A stretch of 64,000 nucleotides of DNA from Deltaproteobacteria bacterium (GTDB lineage: Bacteria; Desulfobacterota; Deferrimicrobia; Deferrimicrobiales; Deferrimicrobiaceae). The stretch lies in the NCBI GenBank assembly GCA_021815305.1, contig JAKAHC010000003.1:1-64000 (forward strand), in the 5' to 3' direction. Each line of letters starts with the position of its first letter. The first letter of the stretch is position 1. Below, one piece after another: positions 33,701 through 41,615 of the stretch. The translations under genes were made by a program, and so were the position numbers. The notes below the pieces were generated by a model. The model saw only the letters and a program-made list of their open reading frames with translations, ran no database searches and was not told the origin of the DNA.

Positions 33701-34019
33701 GGAGGTCCGCTCCTCCCCCTTGCACCGGATGCTGCTCGGGACCCGCGTCGTCGGCACGGAGCTGCCGCTCCTTCTGTTCCGCGGCGGCCGCGCCCTGGAA
33801 GACCGGGCGGACCTCGTCGTCCGCCGGGAGGGACCTTCGGGGGCCGGGGGCGAGCACTGGGTCGTGGATTACAAGACGGGGCGGCGGGAGCCCGGGCTCG
33901 AGGAGAGCTACTCCCTCCGTTTGCGGGAGTACCTGGAGATCCTGTCCGAGGCGTGGGGCGTCCCGGCGCGCGGCTTCCTCTGGTACGTGGAGACCGGGGA
34001 AGCGGTCGAGGTCTCCTGA
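30756..34019 (+). CDS. addA: AddA-like UvrD helicase/nuclease
   Basis: A 1087-residue superfamily 1A helicase with C-terminal nuclease. Motifs are DASAGTGKTAW (Walker A), LLTFTDKAAAEM, VTTFHSFCARVL, FVDEFQDTDPVQ (Walker B), GDPKQSIYGFRRA, STIHAAKGLEFPVV and LLYVAATRARDRLFLVD. The nuclease tail has GEKVHRAFE, EDRADLVV and WVVDYKTG. Together with AddB it resects DNA ends to load RecA. It follows addB directly. Its last 110 bp are overlapped on the other strand by an open frame continuing from a methylase remnant. Confidence 0.92.
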   Translation: MNEDLGGSARVFRRNLAVDASAGTGKTAWLVARVTNLFLDQPGLLPDHVLLLTFTDKAAAEMKGRLTERWERLYAAAQESEDPAEIGRRMAAWKPVVEVPEGRYPEPGSLRRRVEEMVDGEGRLSVTTFHSFCARVLRSFPAEAGVDPLFEVLSKSEASDAWDAAFRTFLRGEFGAEAASREWETILLRAQDPGKVWSVIRRLCLAQRDLLRGAPPDFGSPGDFLSFLRREYASHVAYFRSFVAGIAVSAEDPAAAFRAALDRLVPAWEAVLRGDLDAAAACAAEGAAAFDIDLRKARSGKKFPRPEGPLLSEVRDALRKFFDLLEEVPGGDAAARFLVARAGTAIAAYERAKGSGLDFMDLLLRAGDLLAKNPEVARRLAARFRYVFVDEFQDTDPVQAEVLRTLSASGGEGRLFVVGDPKQSIYGFRRADIQAYRRFRDGMLSEGGEDVALARNFRSRPDLVATLNGLFSRVLRGGEDFSPAYVPVRPQRDDPGTGHPVILYTLDASVEEAGFLSALVQRVVGTVKVRDRDGSERPAAFRDVAVLYRSDASGELLSGYREALAAAGIPHIVPSRKGFFLRQEIQDLRIVLSAVDVPADLSARHAALKTLFFGLSDEEILPLYGRDAAAVPLRTRDALALLSRLSARRERAMLPDLLAELFRETGVDFVAARLPEGERVAQNLAKAAEMARAFEWGGAGSLKLFLAEVRRKSGEGWEEDEVPDFEEGEDAVRLSTIHAAKGLEFPVVILGGLSRGGRKGPEGLRADPGQGISAVIFPGFRTYSAFREVPRPGGSVTFERREREKVVAEEQRLLYVAATRARDRLFLVDGGKGAGSDLRDALREGLGGVLSVDNSICPVTGLPGDRLVLGPPEPEGTFGGELLRVGVPSPLKGEIPPPKIAKPLPSPPGERPAETETGPVPLPEPVTLAELNDRDRGRRFGEKVHRAFEAFPPTTSPWPPEGAVPPVGWEEEERPRWEAIVAEVRSSPLHRMLLGTRVVGTELPLLLFRGGRALEDRADLVVRREGPSGAGGEHWVVDYKTGRREPGLEESYSLRLREYLEILSEAWGVPARGFLWYVETGEAVEVS

Positions 34020-34651
34020 CGTACGTGGACGTCTTCTTGTTTGGAACGGCTTACGAACTCCCGGATTCTTGTATGGGCAAGAAGCCGGTCGAGTGTGGCC
34101 GCCGTGCGCTCGTAAAGAAGAACCGGATACGGAACGTTCTCGGCGGCGGCGTATTGGAGAGACTTCTTCCCTTCCTTCGTGTCGAACTTGTCCAATCGAT
34201 GGATTGAATCGCCCCGGGTTTGCTGGAGACTCCGTTCTGTGAGTCCGACTGTATCTGCCCCGATGACAGCCCGAGCAGCTTCGCTGAACGCATCGAGATC
34301 AAGAGACGCCAGCGACTGCTTTACGACCCAGAAAGCCATCGGGTTGATATCCGTTCCCACGACGTTCAATCCAAGACGGTTGGCCTCGTAGATCGTCGTG
34401 CCGCCCCCCATGAAGGGGTCCGCGATGACTCCTTCGAGATCGTGTGCCCGCCAGTAGGACGATTCGAGAGGCTCCTCCCCATGAAATTCGGCTAATAGCA
34501 GTGTCCGGAAAACGGTCCCCGGGCGGCGGGCAAACCATTTATGAATGCCGATAATGGGGCGGTAATTCTGCTGGATCTGCTTCTCACGCTGCGCCAAGAC
34601 CGCTGTGAACGTGGCGTCGAAATTGGCTTCCAGACTGTGCTTATTGCGCAT
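33908..34651 (-). pseudogene. Truncated DNA methylase (N-terminal remnant)
   Basis: The first 140 residues match the start of a large DNA methylase: YRPIIGIHKWFARRPGTVF, then SAM motif I DPFMGGGTTIYEANRLGLN and VVGTDINPMAFWVVKQSL. Family members are several times longer and carry a catalytic motif that is absent here. After about residue 145 the sequence loses resemblance and the frame runs on into antisense addA. Base composition is lower in GC than all neighbours (for example 31 of 60 bases in 34321-34380), which suggests an acquired then eroded gene. The true end of homology is probably near 34200. I cannot tell whether a short protein is still made. Confidence 0.6.
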
Positions 34652-34929: not shown

Positions 34930-35409
34930 TCACCGGACCGGCAGAAGGTAGATGAGCTTGTCGTCCCCTTCGTCGTAGTAGTCGGGGAGCGAGGCGGCGA
35001 GCGTTGCGCCGATCCTGTCGTAGAACCGGCGGGTGGTTCCGTAGCTCTCCTGCGAGGATGTCTCGATGACCAGAAGCTTCCCTCCGCGCAGCCGCACCTG
35101 CTCCGAGACGAACGTCACCATGGCCCGGCCGTACCCTTTCCCCATCCGGTCCGTCCGCGTGGCGATCCAGTAGAGGTCGTAGGTGGCCTTCGTCATCGGG
35201 TTCTTCCCGAAGCAGGCGTACGCGCCCACCGTGCCGTCCTCCTCCACCAGGACGAAGGGGTGGTACTCTTCCTGGTCCGGGCTCGCGAGGGCCGCGTCCA
35301 CCAGCTCCATCGCCACGTCCACCTCGAAGGGCTTGAAGGCGTTCGTCCCCTCGATGAGCGCGCGGACCGCCTCGCGGTCCTCTTTCTCGACGGGGCGGAT
35401 GCGCGTCAA
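34930..35409 (-). CDS. GNAT family N-acetyltransferase
   Basis: A 159-residue acetyl-CoA-dependent N-acyltransferase. The acetyl-CoA loop region is RTDRMGKGYGRAMV, preceded by the beta strand DLYWIATR; the C-terminal TTRRFYDRIGATLAASLPDYY is typical of GNAT folds. The TTG start at 35409 overlaps the ATP-grasp stop (TTGA), and upstream in-frame starts would create a long low-complexity tail. As the last gene of a cluster with lysine 2,3-aminomutase it may acetylate a beta-lysine product, as AblB does in Nepsilon-acetyl-beta-lysine synthesis. AblB is longer, so this is only an analogy. Confidence 0.82.
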   Translation of the reverse strand: MTRIRPVEKEDREAVRALIEGTNAFKPFEVDVAMELVDAALASPDQEEYHPFVLVEEDGTVGAYACFGKNPMTKATYDLYWIATRTDRMGKGYGRAMVTFVSEQVRLRGGKLLVIETSSQESYGTTRRFYDRIGATLAASLPDYYDEGDDKLIYLLPVR

Positions 35410-36434
35410 CGGGCCCCCAGGGCAAGGCCCAGCCGCAGGATCTCCCGGATCATCTCCTCGTACGGGATCCCGGCGGCGCGCGCGGCCCGTGGCATCCCGG
35501 CATCGGGCGAGATGTCGGGGTTGGGATTCACCTCGAGGACGAACAGCTCCCCCCGCTCGTTCGACCGGAAATCGACCCGGGCGTACCCCGACAGCCGGAA
35601 GATCCGGGCGCACTGCAGCGTGATCTCGGAGAGCCGCCGGAGGGTTTCCGGGGAGGCCTGGGCGGGGCAGACCGGGGCGATCTCCGCATAGGACGGGTGG
35701 GTCGAGTCCCATTTCGATTCGTAGGTGCAAAGCCGCCAGCGGGGGTTCCTGTAGACCAGTTCCGCGGGCGGAAGGGACCGGTAGGGATCCGCGGCGGTGC
35801 CGTTCCCCAGCAGGCCGACGTTATACTCCCGCCCGCCCACGAACTCCTCGACCAGGGAGTCCTGGTGGAGAACGTCCTTGAGCCACTTCACCTGGCGCCG
35901 CAGTCCCGCGCGGTCCGGCACCACGCTGTCCTCCGTGATCCCCGCCGAGCCGTCCTCGTTCGCGGGCTTCACGACCAGCGGGTAGGGCAGCCCCGGCTCT
36001 TCTTCCGGGAGGGTCCTGTACAGGCGGAAGCGGGGCGTCGGGATGCCGTTGGCGGCGAGGATCTGCTTGGTGAGCGACTTGCTGTTGCAGATCCCCAGCG
36101 TGAGCGGCCCGTTGCCCGTGTACGGGATCCGCAGGAGCTCGAAAAGCGCGCAGGCGTGAAGCTCCTTTTCGGGGGAGAGGTGAGGGCATTCGCTGAGATT
36201 GAAGACCACATCCGGCGCCGACGACCGCAGGCCCTTGATCAGCTCCGCCGCGTCTTTCCCGAACGTGTGGGTCCACGCGTCGCTTCCCGCGGACCGCAGC
36301 GCCTCCGCCACGGCGCGTGCGCTGATCGCGAGGTCCATGTCCTCGCGGATCTCTTCCTTGACGTCCCGGGTCGCCTCGAACACGGAGGTGTAGAGAACGG
36401 CGACGCGCGTCCTCACCGCCGCGACGACGTTCAT
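35406..36434 (-). CDS. D-Ala-D-Ala-ligase-like ATP-grasp enzyme 1
   Basis: A 342-residue ATP-grasp carboxylate-amine ligase of the Ddl superfamily. Motifs are PYTGNGPLTLGICNSKSLTK, YPLVVKPANEDGSAGI (ATP-binding lysine), EEFVGGREYNVGLLG, RVDFRSNERG and VLEVNPNPDISPDAG (metal ligands Glu and Asn). It joins an acyl-phosphate of one amino acid to the amine of another. It is only distantly similar to its upstream neighbour, so the pair is unlikely to be a recent duplication. ATG overlaps the preceding stop (ATGA) and the stop overlaps the GNAT start. Cell-wall D-Ala-D-Ala synthesis is possible but not favoured by context. Confidence 0.85.
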   Translation of the reverse strand: MNVVAAVRTRVAVLYTSVFEATRDVKEEIREDMDLAISARAVAEALRSAGSDAWTHTFGKDAAELIKGLRSSAPDVVFNLSECPHLSPEKELHACALFELLRIPYTGNGPLTLGICNSKSLTKQILAANGIPTPRFRLYRTLPEEEPGLPYPLVVKPANEDGSAGITEDSVVPDRAGLRRQVKWLKDVLHQDSLVEEFVGGREYNVGLLGNGTAADPYRSLPPAELVYRNPRWRLCTYESKWDSTHPSYAEIAPVCPAQASPETLRRLSEITLQCARIFRLSGYARVDFRSNERGELFVLEVNPNPDISPDAGMPRAARAAGIPYEEMIREILRLGLALGAR

Positions 36435-37423
36435 GCCGGGCCCATCCCGAGGCGGACGAGGGCGTGCGAGAGGATCTCCCCGACCAGGGAAACGTACGGG
36501 GTCCCCATCCGTTCCGCCAGGATCGGCAGGTCGCCGTAGCCCGGGGAAAGTCCCGGCAGCGGGTTGCACTCGATGAACTGGGGCACCCCGTCCCCGTCGA
36601 TCCGGAAGTCGATGCGGGAGAAGTCGCGGCACCCGAGGAGCCGGTACACCCCCAGGGCGCATCGCCCGATCTCCGAAAGGACCGTCCCGGGCAGGGCGGG
36701 GGGCACCCGGTAGATCACCCGGTTCTCCCAGTCCCGCTTGACCTCGAGGGAGTAGACGAACTCGGAAGAGGGCACCGTCTTCGGTGCGATCTCCATCATC
36801 CCCGCCACGCGGGGCGGGTCGTTCCCCAGAACCCCCACCGTGACCTCCGCTCCCGGAACGAACGCCTCGACCAGCGCGTCCTGGCCGTACGTCTCCGTGA
36901 CGAACCGGACCATCTCCCGGACCCGGTCCTTGTCGGCGGCGCGCGACGAGAGGCGGACCCCCTTGCTCGATCCCTCGAAAACCGGCTTCACGATCGCGGG
37001 GAACGGGAAGGGGAGGGATGCGACCTCGTCGGCGGACCGGAACGTACGAAACGCCGGGGTGGGGAACCCGTCGTGCGCAACGAGGCGTTTGGCCATCGGC
37101 TTGTCGAGGGTGACGGAGAGGGTCAGCGGGTCGGACCCCACGTAGGGAACGGACAGCATCTCCAGCACCGCGGGGATGTGCGCCTCGCGGCACCGCCCTC
37201 CTTCTCCCTCGGCGATGTTGAAGACGATGTCGGGGCTCTCCCTCCGCAGGGCGTCCACGAAGCCTCCGCCCGCGGGGAGCCGCCGGACGTCGTGGCCGAG
37301 GCGGGAGAGCGCGTCGCAGAGGTGGCCCACGGTCGCCTCGGAGTCGTACTCCTCGAAGGCGTCCTCGGGCAGGTGATCGGGCGGATCGGCCGGCTTTACG
37401 TTGTAGGCGAGGCCGACTCGCAC
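36431..37423 (-). CDS. D-Ala-D-Ala-ligase-like ATP-grasp enzyme 2
   Basis: A 330-residue ATP-grasp ligase. Visible motifs are FNIAEGEGG, PYVGSDPLTLSVTLDKPMAK, AIVKPVFEGSSKGV, EAFVPGAEVTVGVLG, RIDFRIDGDG and FIECNPLPGLSPGYGDLP. The GTG start at 37423 has AAGGAG 9 nt upstream within the end of kamA. Longer upstream frames are antisense or out-of-frame shadows. It overlaps kamA by 28 nt and its partner ligase by 4 nt. Two different ligases in a row suggest two successive couplings, or two halves of a heteromeric ligase, acting on the product of KamA. Confidence 0.85.
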   Translation of the reverse strand: MRVGLAYNVKPADPPDHLPEDAFEEYDSEATVGHLCDALSRLGHDVRRLPAGGGFVDALRRESPDIVFNIAEGEGGRCREAHIPAVLEMLSVPYVGSDPLTLSVTLDKPMAKRLVAHDGFPTPAFRTFRSADEVASLPFPFPAIVKPVFEGSSKGVRLSSRAADKDRVREMVRFVTETYGQDALVEAFVPGAEVTVGVLGNDPPRVAGMMEIAPKTVPSSEFVYSLEVKRDWENRVIYRVPPALPGTVLSEIGRCALGVYRLLGCRDFSRIDFRIDGDGVPQFIECNPLPGLSPGYGDLPILAERMGTPYVSLVGEILSHALVRLGMGPA

Positions 37424-38715
37424 CGGCGCTTTCTCCTTGCCATCCGCTCGTTGCCGGCGGGGATGAGCGCCCGGACCTCCCCCGTCAGCAGGCGGTACAC
37501 GTCGTTGCGCGGGGCCGCCGGCGCCGTCTCGGGCCTGGCCGAGGGGCGGCCGTCGTCCGGGGACTCCTCGTAGCTGACGATGATCCCCTCGTAGTTCCGC
37601 AGGACCGTCCGCTCCTCTCCGATCGACAGGATGTAGTTCGGCATGAGCGGGATCTTCCCCCCCCCGCCGGGGACATCCACCACGTAGGAGGGGATGGCCA
37701 GGCCGGAGGTGTGGCCGCGCAGCGCCTCCATGATCCCGATTCCCTTCGACAGGCGGGTGCGGAAGTGCGAGAGTCCCCGGACCATGTCGCACTGGAAGAG
37801 GTAGTAGGGGCGGACCTTGGCCTTGAGCAGTTCCGTGTTCAGCTTCCGGATGATCTCGGCGTGATCGTTGATGCCCTTGAGCAGGACGGTCTGGTTGTTC
37901 ACCGGCACTCCCGCCCGCAGGAGCCTGTCGCACGCCTGGCGCGCCTCCGGGGTGACTTCGCGGGGGTGGTTGAACTGCGTGTTCACCCAGACCGGCCCGT
38001 ATTTCGAAAGCACCGAGCAGAGCTCGTCGTCGATCCGCATCGGCAGGACGACGGGGACGCGCGTTCCGATCCGGAGGATCTCGACGTGGGGGATCTTCCG
38101 GAGGTTTTTCAGGATGTACTCGAGCCGCTCCGTGGGAAGCGTCAGCGGGTCGCCGCCGGAGATGATGACGTCCCGGATCTCCTCGTGGCGCTTCACGTAG
38201 GCGAACATCTTGGAGAGCTCGAACTCGGTCTTGGCGGCCTCGCCCATCGCCCAGATCCGCTTCCTCGTGCAGTGCCTGCAATACATGGAGCAGAAGTTGG
38301 TGACCACCAGGAGGCAGCGGTCCGGGTACCTGTGGGTGAGCCCCGGGACCGGCATGTCCTTTTCCTCTTCCAGCGGGTCGTCCTCGCCGCTCTCGGCTCC
38401 GAAGCATTCCTCCGCGGAGGGGACCGCCTGGCGGAGGATCGGGTCGTCCGGGTCGTCGAACCGCGCGAGAGAGAGGTAGTACGGCGTGATGCCGATGCGG
38501 TAGAGGTCCGTGACGCGGGAGAGAAGCCGGGTCTCTTCGGCGGAGATGCCGCAGAGTCCCGCGAGGTCGTCGACGGAGGTGATGCGGTTGGACAGCTGCC
38601 AGCGGTAGTCGTTCCACTGCTCGCGCGTCGCCTGGGGCCAGGGCAGGCTTTCCGGCGCGGCCCTCCCCTTCGGGCGCTTCAGCGGTACCGCGTCGTCACC
38701 GGGATGGGTCTCCAT
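37396..38715 (-). CDS. kamA: Lysine 2,3-aminomutase (radical SAM, PLP)
   Basis: A 439-residue enzyme converting L-alpha-lysine to L-beta-lysine. The radical-SAM cluster motif is CSMYCRHC (Cys142, Cys146, Cys149) and the SAM region is SGGDPLTL. The PLP lysine lies in VPGGGGKIP. The two aspartates that bind the lysine side-chain amine in clostridial KamA are both present (FQCDM and VVDVPGG), which supports lysine as the substrate and argues against EpmB or glutamate mutase. A C-terminal basic extension (about 35 residues) is variable. The ribosome-binding site is AGGAGG. Its position directly after an XRE-cupin regulator and ahead of two ligases points to a dedicated beta-lysine pathway. Confidence 0.93.
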   Translation of the reverse strand: METHPGDDAVPLKRPKGRAAPESLPWPQATREQWNDYRWQLSNRITSVDDLAGLCGISAEETRLLSRVTDLYRIGITPYYLSLARFDDPDDPILRQAVPSAEECFGAESGEDDPLEEEKDMPVPGLTHRYPDRCLLVVTNFCSMYCRHCTRKRIWAMGEAAKTEFELSKMFAYVKRHEEIRDVIISGGDPLTLPTERLEYILKNLRKIPHVEILRIGTRVPVVLPMRIDDELCSVLSKYGPVWVNTQFNHPREVTPEARQACDRLLRAGVPVNNQTVLLKGINDHAEIIRKLNTELLKAKVRPYYLFQCDMVRGLSHFRTRLSKGIGIMEALRGHTSGLAIPSYVVDVPGGGGKIPLMPNYILSIGEERTVLRNYEGIIVSYEESPDDGRPSARPETAPAAPRNDVYRLLTGEVRALIPAGNERMARRKRRCESASPTT

Positions 38716-38754
38716 GATCCTCCTCGTTTCCCCCCGCGTCCGGGGTGGATGGAC

Positions 38755-38769
38755 GGGGCCGAAAGCCCC
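38755..38769 (-). other. Short hairpin between the regulator gene and kamA
   Basis: GGGGC-CGAAA-GCCCC forms a 5-bp stem in the 58-bp gap between the regulator stop (38774) and kamA. It could partly attenuate read-through from the regulator promoter. No T-run follows, and no separate kamA promoter is evident in the gap. Confidence 0.35.
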
Positions 38770-38773
38770 GGCG

Positions 38774-39310
38774 TTATCGCCCGCTCGTGCGCACCCAGAG
38801 AAAATCGACGAGGGTCTTTCCCTTGTTCGAGAACGCGAACTCCTGCTCCCCCGCGAAGTAGAGGCTCTCCCCCTTGCGGGCGACGTAGGAGACCTGTCCG
38901 AGCCTCAGCCCGAGGCGCCCGGAGAGAACGTGCGTGTAGTTCTCCCCTTCCTGCGCCGGCTCGGGAGCCGTCTCTTTCCCCGGCGCGATCACGGCGCGGT
39001 AGGCGACGATGGAGCGGTAGCGGCTCTTGGGCAGGAGCGTGTCGAACGACTTGTATCCGGTGACCTCGGAAGGGAGAGCGTCGATTTTCCGGAAAAGCAC
39101 CTTCTCCTCGTCCACGTCGGCGAAGAAGGACGAGGGCGTCTCGTTGAGGGCGGTGAGGATCTCGAAGAGGTTGGCGACGGATGGGGAGGTGAGATTGCGC
39201 TCGATCTGGGAGATGGCGCCCTTGGTGAGGCCCGCACGTTCCGCCAGGTCGGCCTGCGCCAGCCCGTTGATCTGGCGCAGGTGCTTGATCCGTGCTCCGA
39301 TGTCGATCAC
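38774..39310 (-). CDS. XRE family transcriptional regulator with C-terminal cupin
   Basis: A 178-residue regulator. The N-terminal 60 residues are an XRE helix-turn-helix (IKHLRQINGLAQADLAERAG, then GAISQIER). The C-terminal half (about 105-178) is a cupin (PAQEGENYTHVLSGRLGLRLG ... KGESLYFAGEQEFAF), the ligand-sensing arrangement of PuuR-like and amino-acid or polyamine-responsive regulators. The GTG start at 39310 is the only reasonable start. A consensus promoter and a palindrome (39322-39338) lie just upstream, which suggests autoregulation and control of the kamA cluster. The ligand is probably lysine or the pathway product (inference). Confidence 0.88.
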   Translation of the reverse strand: MIDIGARIKHLRQINGLAQADLAERAGLTKGAISQIERNLTSPSVANLFEILTALNETPSSFFADVDEEKVLFRKIDALPSEVTGYKSFDTLLPKSRYRSIVAYRAVIAPGKETAPEPAQEGENYTHVLSGRLGLRLGQVSYVARKGESLYFAGEQEFAFSNKGKTLVDFLWVRTSGR

Positions 39311-39321
39311 GGGTCTGTTTT

Positions 39322-39338
39322 TTAAACCCTCCGTTTAA
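39322..39338 (-). promoter_or_regulatory. Candidate operator TTAAAC-N5-GTTTAA
   Basis: A perfect 6-bp inverted repeat with a 5-bp centre lies 12 bp upstream of the regulator start and 13 bp downstream of its -10 hexamer. It therefore overlaps or closely follows the transcription start, the usual place for an XRE autorepressor. The centre (GGAGG on the minus strand) also doubles as a Shine-Dalgarno-like sequence, though 16 nt from the GTG. Confidence 0.55.
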
Positions 39339-39351
39339 TAAATCTACCCAA

Positions 39352-39380
39352 ATTCTAAAAACACTGGTTCAGCCTGTCAA
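39352..39380 (-). promoter_or_regulatory. Sigma70 promoter of the XRE/kamA cluster
   Basis: On the minus strand a perfect -35 TTGACA (39380-39375) and a -10 TAGAAT (39357-39352) are separated by exactly 17 bp. It lies in an AT-rich island and the predicted start is near 39345. It is the best promoter match I see in the window. It should drive the regulator and, by read-through, the four genes behind it. Confidence 0.7.
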
Positions 39381-39782: not shown

Positions 39783-39858
39783 GGGGGAGTAGCTCAGCTG
39801 GGAGAGCACCACGTTCGCAACGTGGGGGTCGAGGGTTCAATCCCCTTCTCCTCCACCA
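39783..39858 (+). tRNA. tRNA-Ala (anticodon CGC)
   Basis: A complete cloverleaf can be folded by hand. The acceptor GGGGGAG pairs with CTCCTCC, with the G3:U70 wobble that is the alanine identity element. The D arm is GCTCAGCTGGGAGAGC. The anticodon stem CCACG/CGTGG encloses the loop TTCGCAA (anticodon CGC, reading GCG). The T arm is GAGGG-TTCAATC-CCCTT, the discriminator is A, and CCA is encoded at 39856-39858. GCG is a frequent alanine codon in this GC-rich genome. Confidence 0.95.
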
Positions 39859-40007: not shown

Positions 40008-41615
40008 GTGAAGCGCCAACTCGCGGAAACGGCCGCAGAGATCGGTCGGAAGCATGAAAGGGACAAGGAGGCCGAGAATCGGCTCCGGGAGAGCGAAACC
40101 CTCTATCGTTCCGTGTTCGATCACGGTGCCGACGGGATCGTGATCGTCGACCCGGAAACGGCGGCCCCGGTGGATTTCAACCAGCAGACATGCACGCAGC
40201 TTGGGTATACGCGGGAGGAATTCGGCCGCCTGAAGATTTCCGATATCGATTTTCTTGAGGACCATGAAGAAGTCAGGGCGCACATGCGGAAGATCATGGA
40301 CGCCGGGTACGACGAGTTCGAAACGCTTCATCGCACCAAGCGTGGGGATCGGCGGAATGTGCATGTCAAGGCCTGGTACATTTCGGTCGGGGGCAAATCC
40401 TTGTACCTGTGCATCTGGCGCGACATCACCGACTACAAGCGGGCCGAAGCCGAGAAGGAAAAACTGCAGGCCCAGCTGCTGCAGGCGATGAAGATGGAGG
40501 CGGTGGGGCGCCTTGCCGGGGGCGTGGCGCACGACTTCAACAACCTCCTGACGGTGATCACGGGGTACAGCGAACTCCTGCTGCAGAGGATCGGGAAGGA
40601 ATCCCCGATGCACGGGGAAGTGGAGGAGATCCGCCGGGCGGGGGAACGGGCGTCGTCGCTGACGCAGCAGCTGCTGGCGTTCTCCCGGAAGCAGATCATC
40701 GAACCGAAGGTGCTTCACCTTGACAACCTGGTGGCGGAGATGCACAGGATGCTGACCCGCCTGATCGGCGAGGACGTCGCGTTGCGGACCGCCAGCGGCA
40801 AATCCCTGGGATCGGTGAAGGTCGACCCGGGGCAGTTTCAGCAGATCCTGGTGAACCTGGTGGTGAACGCCCGGGATGCGATGCCGGGGAGCGGGACGAT
40901 CGTGATCGAGACCGCGGACGTGGAATTGGACCCGGGATACTGCGCCCTCCACCCTTACGTCAAACCGGGACGGTTCGTGATGCTGGCGGTCAGCGACACG
41001 GGGAAGGGGATGAGCGAAGAGGTCAAGGCGCACATGTTCGAGCCGTTCTTCACCACGAAGGGAAAGGGGAGCGGGACGGGACTGGGCCTCGCGACGACAT
41101 ACGGCATCGTGAAGCAGGCGGGCGGATCCATCGAGGCGTACTCGGAGGAGGGAATCGGGACGACCTTCAAAATCTACCTGCCGCGTGTCGAGGAGGAGGC
41201 GGCGAAACCGGGAAGCGACGTCCGCCTTGCGGAGCTCCCGGCAGGGACGGAGACGGTGCTGATCGTGGAGGATGAGGGCATACTGAGGAACCTGTGCGTC
41301 CGGATCCTGGAGCGGCTGGGGTACGGGGTGCTGCAGGCCCGGGAGGGGACCGAGGCGATCTCGGTGGCGAAGGGGTACGGCGACCGGATCGACCTGCTGC
41401 TGACGGACGTGGTGATGCCGGGGATGAACGGAAGCGAACTGGCGACGCAGTTGGTCCTGCGCAATCCCGGGATGAAGGTACTCTTCACGTCCGGCTACAC
41501 CGAAGAAGTGATCTCCCACCACGGGGTGCTGGCCGAGGGCGTGTCCTTCCTAGGGAAACCGTACACCCCGTCGGCGCTGGCAAGGAAGGTCCGGGAAGTC
41601 ATCGACGAGGTGTGA
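40008..41615 (+). CDS. Hybrid histidine kinase (PAS-HisKA-HATPase-REC)
   Basis: A 535-residue soluble hybrid kinase. It has an N-terminal coiled segment, a PAS domain at about 30-145 (SVFDHGADGIVIVDPE), phospho-acceptor His175 ([14 protein letters not shown]), an ATPase domain with [17 protein letters not shown] and [10 protein letters not shown], and a C-terminal receiver (VLIVEDEG ... [12 protein letters not shown]). The GTG start has GGAGGTG upstream. There is no output domain, so the phosphate must pass to another protein. The kinase core is closely similar, even at DNA level around the H-box, to the next gene. The signal is unknown. Confidence 0.92.
   Translation: MKRQLAETAAEIGRKHERDKEAENRLRESETLYRSVFDHGADGIVIVDPETAAPVDFNQQTCTQLGYTREEFGRLKISDIDFLEDHEEVRAHMRKIMDAGYDEFETLHRTKRGDRRNVHVKAWYISVGGKSLYLCIWRDITDYKRAEAEKEKLQAQLLQAMKMEAVGRLAGGVAHDFNNLLTVITGYSELLLQRIGKESPMHGEVEEIRRAGERASSLTQQLLAFSRKQIIEPKVLHLDNLVAEMHRMLTRLIGEDVALRTASGKSLGSVKVDPGQFQQILVNLVVNARDAMPGSGTIVIETADVELDPGYCALHPYVKPGRFVMLAVSDTGKGMSEEVKAHMFEPFFTTKGKGSGTGLGLATTYGIVKQAGGSIEAYSEEGIGTTFKIYLPRVEEEAAKPGSDVRLAELPAGTETVLIVEDEGILRNLCVRILERLGYGVLQAREGTEAISVAKGYGDRIDLLLTDVVMPGMNGSELATQLVLRNPGMKVLFTSGYTEEVISHHGVLAEGVSFLGKPYTPSALARKVREVIDEV

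Follow-up and report, generated by a model that had tools for sequence, protein, structure and literature searches.

We analysed a 64,000-nucleotide stretch of the genome of a Deltaproteobacteria bacterium (family Deferrimicrobiaceae; assembly GCA_021815305.1, contig JAKAHC010000003.1), referred to here as the window, and focused on an operon that combines a lysine 2,3-aminomutase-type enzyme (KamA), two ATP-grasp ligases of the D-alanine-D-alanine ligase (Ddl) fold (LIG1 and LIG2) and a GNAT acetyltransferase behind an XRE-cupin regulator. The original prediction described five minus-strand genes, the last four overlapping by 28 nucleotides, ATGA and TTGA, and this layout proved exact to the base (Table 1). 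By coordinates, the kamA/lig1 overlap is identical in five further Deferrimicrobiaceae genomes; because it recurs in this way, the GTG start of lig1 and the tight coupling of the two genes are not chance.

Table 1 Operon genes and upstream elements, with positions in the window
Feature	Position	Strand	Details
XRE-family helix-turn-helix (HTH) and cupin regulator (PuuR-like architecture)	38774..39310	minus	178 aa, GTG start
KamA, lysine 2,3-aminomutase-type radical SAM/pyridoxal phosphate (PLP) enzyme	37396..38715	minus	439 aa
LIG1, Ddl-fold ATP-grasp ligase	36431..37423	minus	330 aa, GTG start, 28-nt overlap with kamA
LIG2, second Ddl-fold ATP-grasp ligase	35406..36434	minus	342 aa, ATGA overlap with lig1
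GNAT acetyltransferase, 2R7H family	34930..35409	minus	159 aa, TTG start, TTGA overlap with lig2
Sigma-70-type promoter TTGACA-N17-TAGAAT, upstream of the regulator gene	39352..39380	minus	11/12 consensus positions
Candidate operator, imperfect dyad TTTATTAAAC-GGAGG-GTTTAAAAAA, between promoter and start codon	39318..39342	minus	conserved block

KamA and the two ligases

KamA aligned with the lysine 2,3-aminomutase of C. subterminale (2A5H) over 397 residues (E=4.5e-133) and contains the radical SAM CxxxCxxC motif, the PLP lysine and, as had been predicted, both lysine-binding aspartates (D310 and D347). Among the KamA proteins associated with the ligases, one of the two aspartates is kept in 40/41 and the other, like the PLP lysine, in 41/41. 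Glutamate 2,3-aminomutases are without this aspartate pair. The score of KamA exceeded the cut-off of the KamA family model TIGR00238 (349.2 versus 199.2 bits) and fell far below that of the EpmB model TIGR03821 (247.8 versus 369.3 bits). The operon copy is the only KamA encoded in the genome. The PF09043 profile for lysine 5,6-aminomutase gave no match, but gave none in the controls either.

Both ligases belong to Pfam family PF07478, the Ddl fold family. Their AlphaFold models (pLDDT 95.7 for LIG1 and 90.5 for LIG2) matched Pseudomonas DdlA and DdlB with a VIA Z of 34-35 and a root mean square deviation of 1.8-2.2 over ~295 residues. The matches listed in PDB fold searches were Ddl-type enzymes, and the fold therefore yields no clue to the substrate. 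Neither protein came near the 243-bit cut-off of the NCBIfam Ddl model PRK01372, with LIG1 scoring 152.6 and LIG2 130.3 bits. In a tree of 116 LIG1, 67 LIG2 and 12 canonical Ddl sequences from the same phylum, all LIG1 proteins formed one clade (support 0.98) and all LIG2 proteins another (support 0.45, weak), each apart from Ddl.

Using the same sequences, we compared the active-site pockets in E. coli DdlB numbering, mapped through alignments; the roles of the DdlB residues are well established. The residues that serve ATP and magnesium binding and catalysis (K144, R255, D257, E270 and N272) are retained in LIG1 and LIG2, which share fold, catalytic residues and Pfam family with DdlA, DdlB and VanA. 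The substrate residues differ. His63 and Tyr216 are both present in 12/12 local Ddl enzymes, whereas His63 is replaced by Glu in 183/183 LIG proteins, and the Tyr216 position is occupied by Trp in every LIG2 and is variable in LIG1 (mostly Arg, Trp, Glu or Leu). E68 is replaced family-wide, with E68-D69 becoming R-E in LIG1. Ser150 is still Ser or Thr in LIG1 but Ala or Gly in 99% of LIG2 proteins, Leu282 is mostly Asp in LIG1 and Gly in LIG2, and an additional arginine (RxDxR) is common to both. Signature residues are E25, D27, E72, R79, E80 and R274 in LIG1 and N79, E82, W242, R290 and N305 in LIG2. The added acidic side chains of LIG1 (E25, D27, E72, E80 and D298) would suit a diamino substrate. 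A separate canonical Ddl is encoded elsewhere in the genome, and neither pocket is of the canonical D-Ala-D-Ala type. Judged by sequence, LIG1 and LIG2 are two subfamilies distinct from Ddl.

Recurrence and genomic partners

We surveyed 198 genomes across the phylum, scoring KamA as adjacent when it lay within 6 kb of the ligases, and found adjacency in 53. A strong KamA match was present in 35/36 genomes with tandem ligases as against 51/162 others (Fisher p=4e-14, uncorrected for phylogeny), and the order kamA-lig1-lig2-gnat recurs across many families. We then scanned 84,980 species genomes and analysed the best 80 LIG1 loci, assigning groups from record titles. Among these 80, KamA lay beside LIG1 in 41, spanning roughly ten bacterial groups at phylum level (Chloroflexota, Omnitrophota, Bacillota, Planctomycetota, Bacteroidota/Ignavibacteria, Deltaproteobacteria, Alphaproteobacteria, Magnetococcales, Nitrospirota and Coriobacteriales) and archaea, with six archaeal loci. 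The association of kamA with these ligases is thus not peculiar to this genome but extends across phyla and domains, and the conservation of gene order across phyla excludes a chance arrangement. Some loci from Omnitrophota, Bacillota, Nitrospirota and Coriobacteriales combine KamA with LIG1-type ligases only, which makes LIG1 the likelier direct partner of beta-lysine and suggests that LIG1 catalyses the beta-lysine step.

The GNAT, in turn, is tied to LIG2. It matches PF00583 and aligns with PDB entry 2R7H at 128 bits over 153 residues. Among the loci surveyed, 26/26 with the GNAT also hold LIG2, and in three lineages (L075, L077 and L079) the two are fused into a single protein of 510-522 residues; Pfam found both domains in the two fusion proteins scanned. 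The entry 2R7H is called a 'putative D-alanine N-acetyltransferase', a function known by name only, and the cluster context argues for the product or substrate of LIG2, rather than D-alanine, as the substrate of this GNAT family.

In two loci (L076 and L122), the cluster GNAT is fused to a histone-deacetylase-family (HDAC) domain that follows a further N-terminal GNAT-like region (for example, L076:10282-12543). L046 encodes a protein that matches these in cluster and length, and in L088 and L097 the gene for an HDAC protein comes after gnat. These fusions and neighbours suggest that acetylation and deacetylation are both part of some versions of the pathway, which would fit either a protecting acetyl group or reversible acetylation. 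Proteins with an N-terminal GNAT-like region and an HDAC-family domain were observed near kamA and the ligases in six loci altogether (the five above and L073), and the genome of the window encodes three HDAC-family proteins elsewhere.

Other settings of these genes were also recorded. In nine loci, mostly from Myxococcota and relatives, LIG1-type genes stand in tandem with no KamA, close to a gene for an S58 (DmpA/BapA-type) peptidase; the S58 family includes beta-peptidyl aminopeptidases. In five loci, the ligase pair lies near a pyruvoyl-dependent arginine decarboxylase gene, together with agmatinase and/or deoxyhypusine-synthase-like genes, and KamA is encoded elsewhere in the genome. On the Thioflavicoccus mobilis plasmid pTHIMO01 (L162:3656-9137), a related ATP-grasp gene stands beside genes for a lysine-type KamA, SbnA, an SbnB-like protein and a diaminobutyrate transaminase. 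SbnA and SbnB synthesize 2,3-diaminopropionate, and this arrangement points to a diamino-acid partner for the putative plasmid-borne ligase. The two LIG homologues examined on rhizobial plasmids are single genes among insertion sequences with no KamA nearby. On four other plasmids kamA was found in different contexts with no such ligases annotated alongside, so KamA is not linked to these ligases wherever it occurs. The core cluster showed no recurring dedicated transporter, and the product is therefore probably intracellular.

Regulator and neighbouring features

The regulator has an HTH_3-cupin architecture (PF01381 and PF07883), and its best NCBIfam relative is PuuR, at 63 bits and far under the 211-bit cut-off. 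Other Deferrimicrobiaceae genera carry orthologues, 80-84% identical, immediately upstream of kamA. The prediction that a ligand-sensing repressor heads the cluster held in that the XRE-cupin gene is real, but it was seen only in this family and lies outside the core gene set. In the regulator promoters of aligned relatives, TTGACA and TAnnAT are invariant. The dyad spans the ribosome-binding site, is likewise conserved in aligned relatives, and may serve the XRE-cupin repressor as operator. In Deferrimicrobiaceae, the repressor would probably control transcription through this promoter and dyad of its own gene, in response to a putative ligand. No riboswitch emerged when the window, the upstream region and ten related loci were scanned with Rfam; the hits were tRNAs and chance matches below threshold.

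Beside the operon, a 247-aa open reading frame (33908-34651) matches an N6/N4 DNA methylase model over the end of the model only, along with part of DUF1156, and looks like a truncated or frame-disrupted methylase. The sole tRNA of the window, tRNA-Ala (CGC; 39783-39858), separates the cluster from a gene for a hybrid PAS-histidine kinase/receiver protein (40008-41615).

Proposed pathway, alternatives and significance

We propose, with a probability of roughly 0.6, that the operon makes a small beta-lysine peptide or amide. KamA would convert L-lysine to beta-lysine (3,6-diaminohexanoate). LIG1, with its re-modelled substrate site, would use ATP to activate a carboxylate as an acyl phosphate and make the first amide bond, in which beta-lysine would be either donor or acceptor. 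A second bond would come from LIG2, and the GNAT would N-acetylate either what LIG2 takes up or what it releases. We favour this proposal because KamA adjoins the ligases, LIG2 and the GNAT are fused in some lineages, the GNAT occurs only with LIG2, KamA has the lysine-type aspartate pair, and the ligases keep the catalytic residues of Ddl but have lost its substrate residues. The role of beta-lysine as a ligase substrate, the order of the steps and the site of acetylation are what we infer from this pattern.

Several observations weigh against the proposal, which draws on sequences and structural models. KamA narrowly missed the NCBIfam AblA equivalog cut-off (516 versus 525.4 bits). Some LIG1 loci, notably those from Myxococcota, have no KamA nearby, and LIG1 can therefore have other substrates, while in several families the ligase pair adjoins polyamine genes and KamA is encoded elsewhere. 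Finally, the genome encodes an EpmA-like protein and an elongation factor P (EF-P) whose loop reads PGKG, so EF-P modification may be a second consumer of beta-lysine.

The AblA/AblB pathway of methanogens, green sulfur bacteria and Bacillus also joins a lysine 2,3-aminomutase and a GNAT in one operon, which raises the alternative that KamA and the GNAT make the compatible solute Nepsilon-acetyl-beta-lysine while the ligases do something separate. The type of KamA and the presence of a GNAT would fit, and the osmolyte route, known in methanogens, has been proposed in Pelobacter carbinolicus (PMC3543383). This cluster, however, adds two ATP-grasp ligases, its GNAT follows LIG2 rather than KamA alone and, where fusions occur, has LIG2 or an HDAC-type domain as its partner, and no salt-linked riboswitch was found in the window or ten related loci. 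The AblB model TIGR03827, which finds Methanosarcina acetivorans, matched nothing in the genome at E≤0.01, and the cluster GNAT had no AblB match in the NCBIfam scan. As the GNAT is not AblB, the original analogy with this osmolyte holds only loosely, and we consider the explanation unlikely. A possible tie to salt adaptation in Desulfovibrio vulgaris was dropped, as the text of PMC5686539 mentions neither lysine nor an aminomutase. It is doubtful, too, that the partner of beta-lysine is not an amino acid but, for example, a polyamine or a macromolecule, giving a cationic conjugate. The polyamine-type neighbourhoods described above, the resemblance of the GNAT-HDAC-GNAT fusions to enzymes of polyamine acetylation and deacetylation, and the distant relationship of the regulator to PuuR would fit such a product; yet most KamA-containing loci, the window included, are without polyamine genes, and the polyamine-type operons also carry housekeeping genes, so that the link may be incidental.

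A further possibility is that KamA feeds the modification of EF-P by EpmA, with the ligases as unrelated passengers. The operon KamA is the only one in the genome, the genX/EpmA model was exceeded (293.6 versus 286.9) and the EF-P loop is of the PGKG type, but KamA scored far under the EpmB cut-off, and the association with the ligases is far too regular for passengers. EpmB gives (R)-beta-lysine and lysine 2,3-aminomutase the (S) form. Archaea use aIF5A, not EF-P, and this explanation, which cannot account for the archaeal cassettes, is very unlikely. That both ligases serve to make D-Ala-D-Ala, or some variant of this cell-wall dipeptide, is extremely unlikely: they share the fold and Pfam family of Ddl, but score far below the Ddl cut-off, have lost His63, Tyr216 and other Ddl substrate residues, and coexist with a canonical Ddl.

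Small peptides such as N-acetylglutaminylglutamine amide and bacilysin are made by ATP-grasp ligases, the first with an acetyltransferase. Here, by comparison, the ligases have the Ddl fold, belong to different families and accompany KamA. Models for the ligase/amidotransferase of N-acetylglutaminylglutamine amide were not among the NCBIfam matches, their presence in the library being unchecked. The original prediction named no characterised pathway with this gene set, and we found no description of one in the full text of 5.39 million open-access papers, a collection that mostly excludes subscription journals; the two papers there that mention both an aminomutase and ATP-grasp deal, by title or abstract, with other subjects. 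The cluster would be an uncharacterised variant of ATP-grasp peptide synthesis. Overall, the original interpretation is partly supported. Its outline has gained strength, and three details need correcting: the XRE-cupin gene falls outside the core, the GNAT differs from AblB, and the ligases form two subfamilies separate from Ddl.

More tentatively, and at slightly less than even odds, these operons may make a widespread, undescribed class of beta-lysine pseudopeptides. Many bacterial phyla, as well as Bathyarchaeota/Nitrososphaeria, would assemble them with a dedicated pair of ATP-grasp ligases; acetyl groups would be attached during synthesis and, in lineages that have HDAC fusions, taken off again. 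The five proteins are small and probably soluble, making the proposal directly testable. The annotations 'lysine aminomutase', 'D-Ala-D-Ala ligases' and 'D-alanine N-acetyltransferase' appear to hide one conserved pathway in cultured and uncultured lineages. If so, many 'Ddl' annotations would be wrong, 2R7H would gain a likely pathway, and a common intracellular beta-amino-acid metabolite would have been overlooked.

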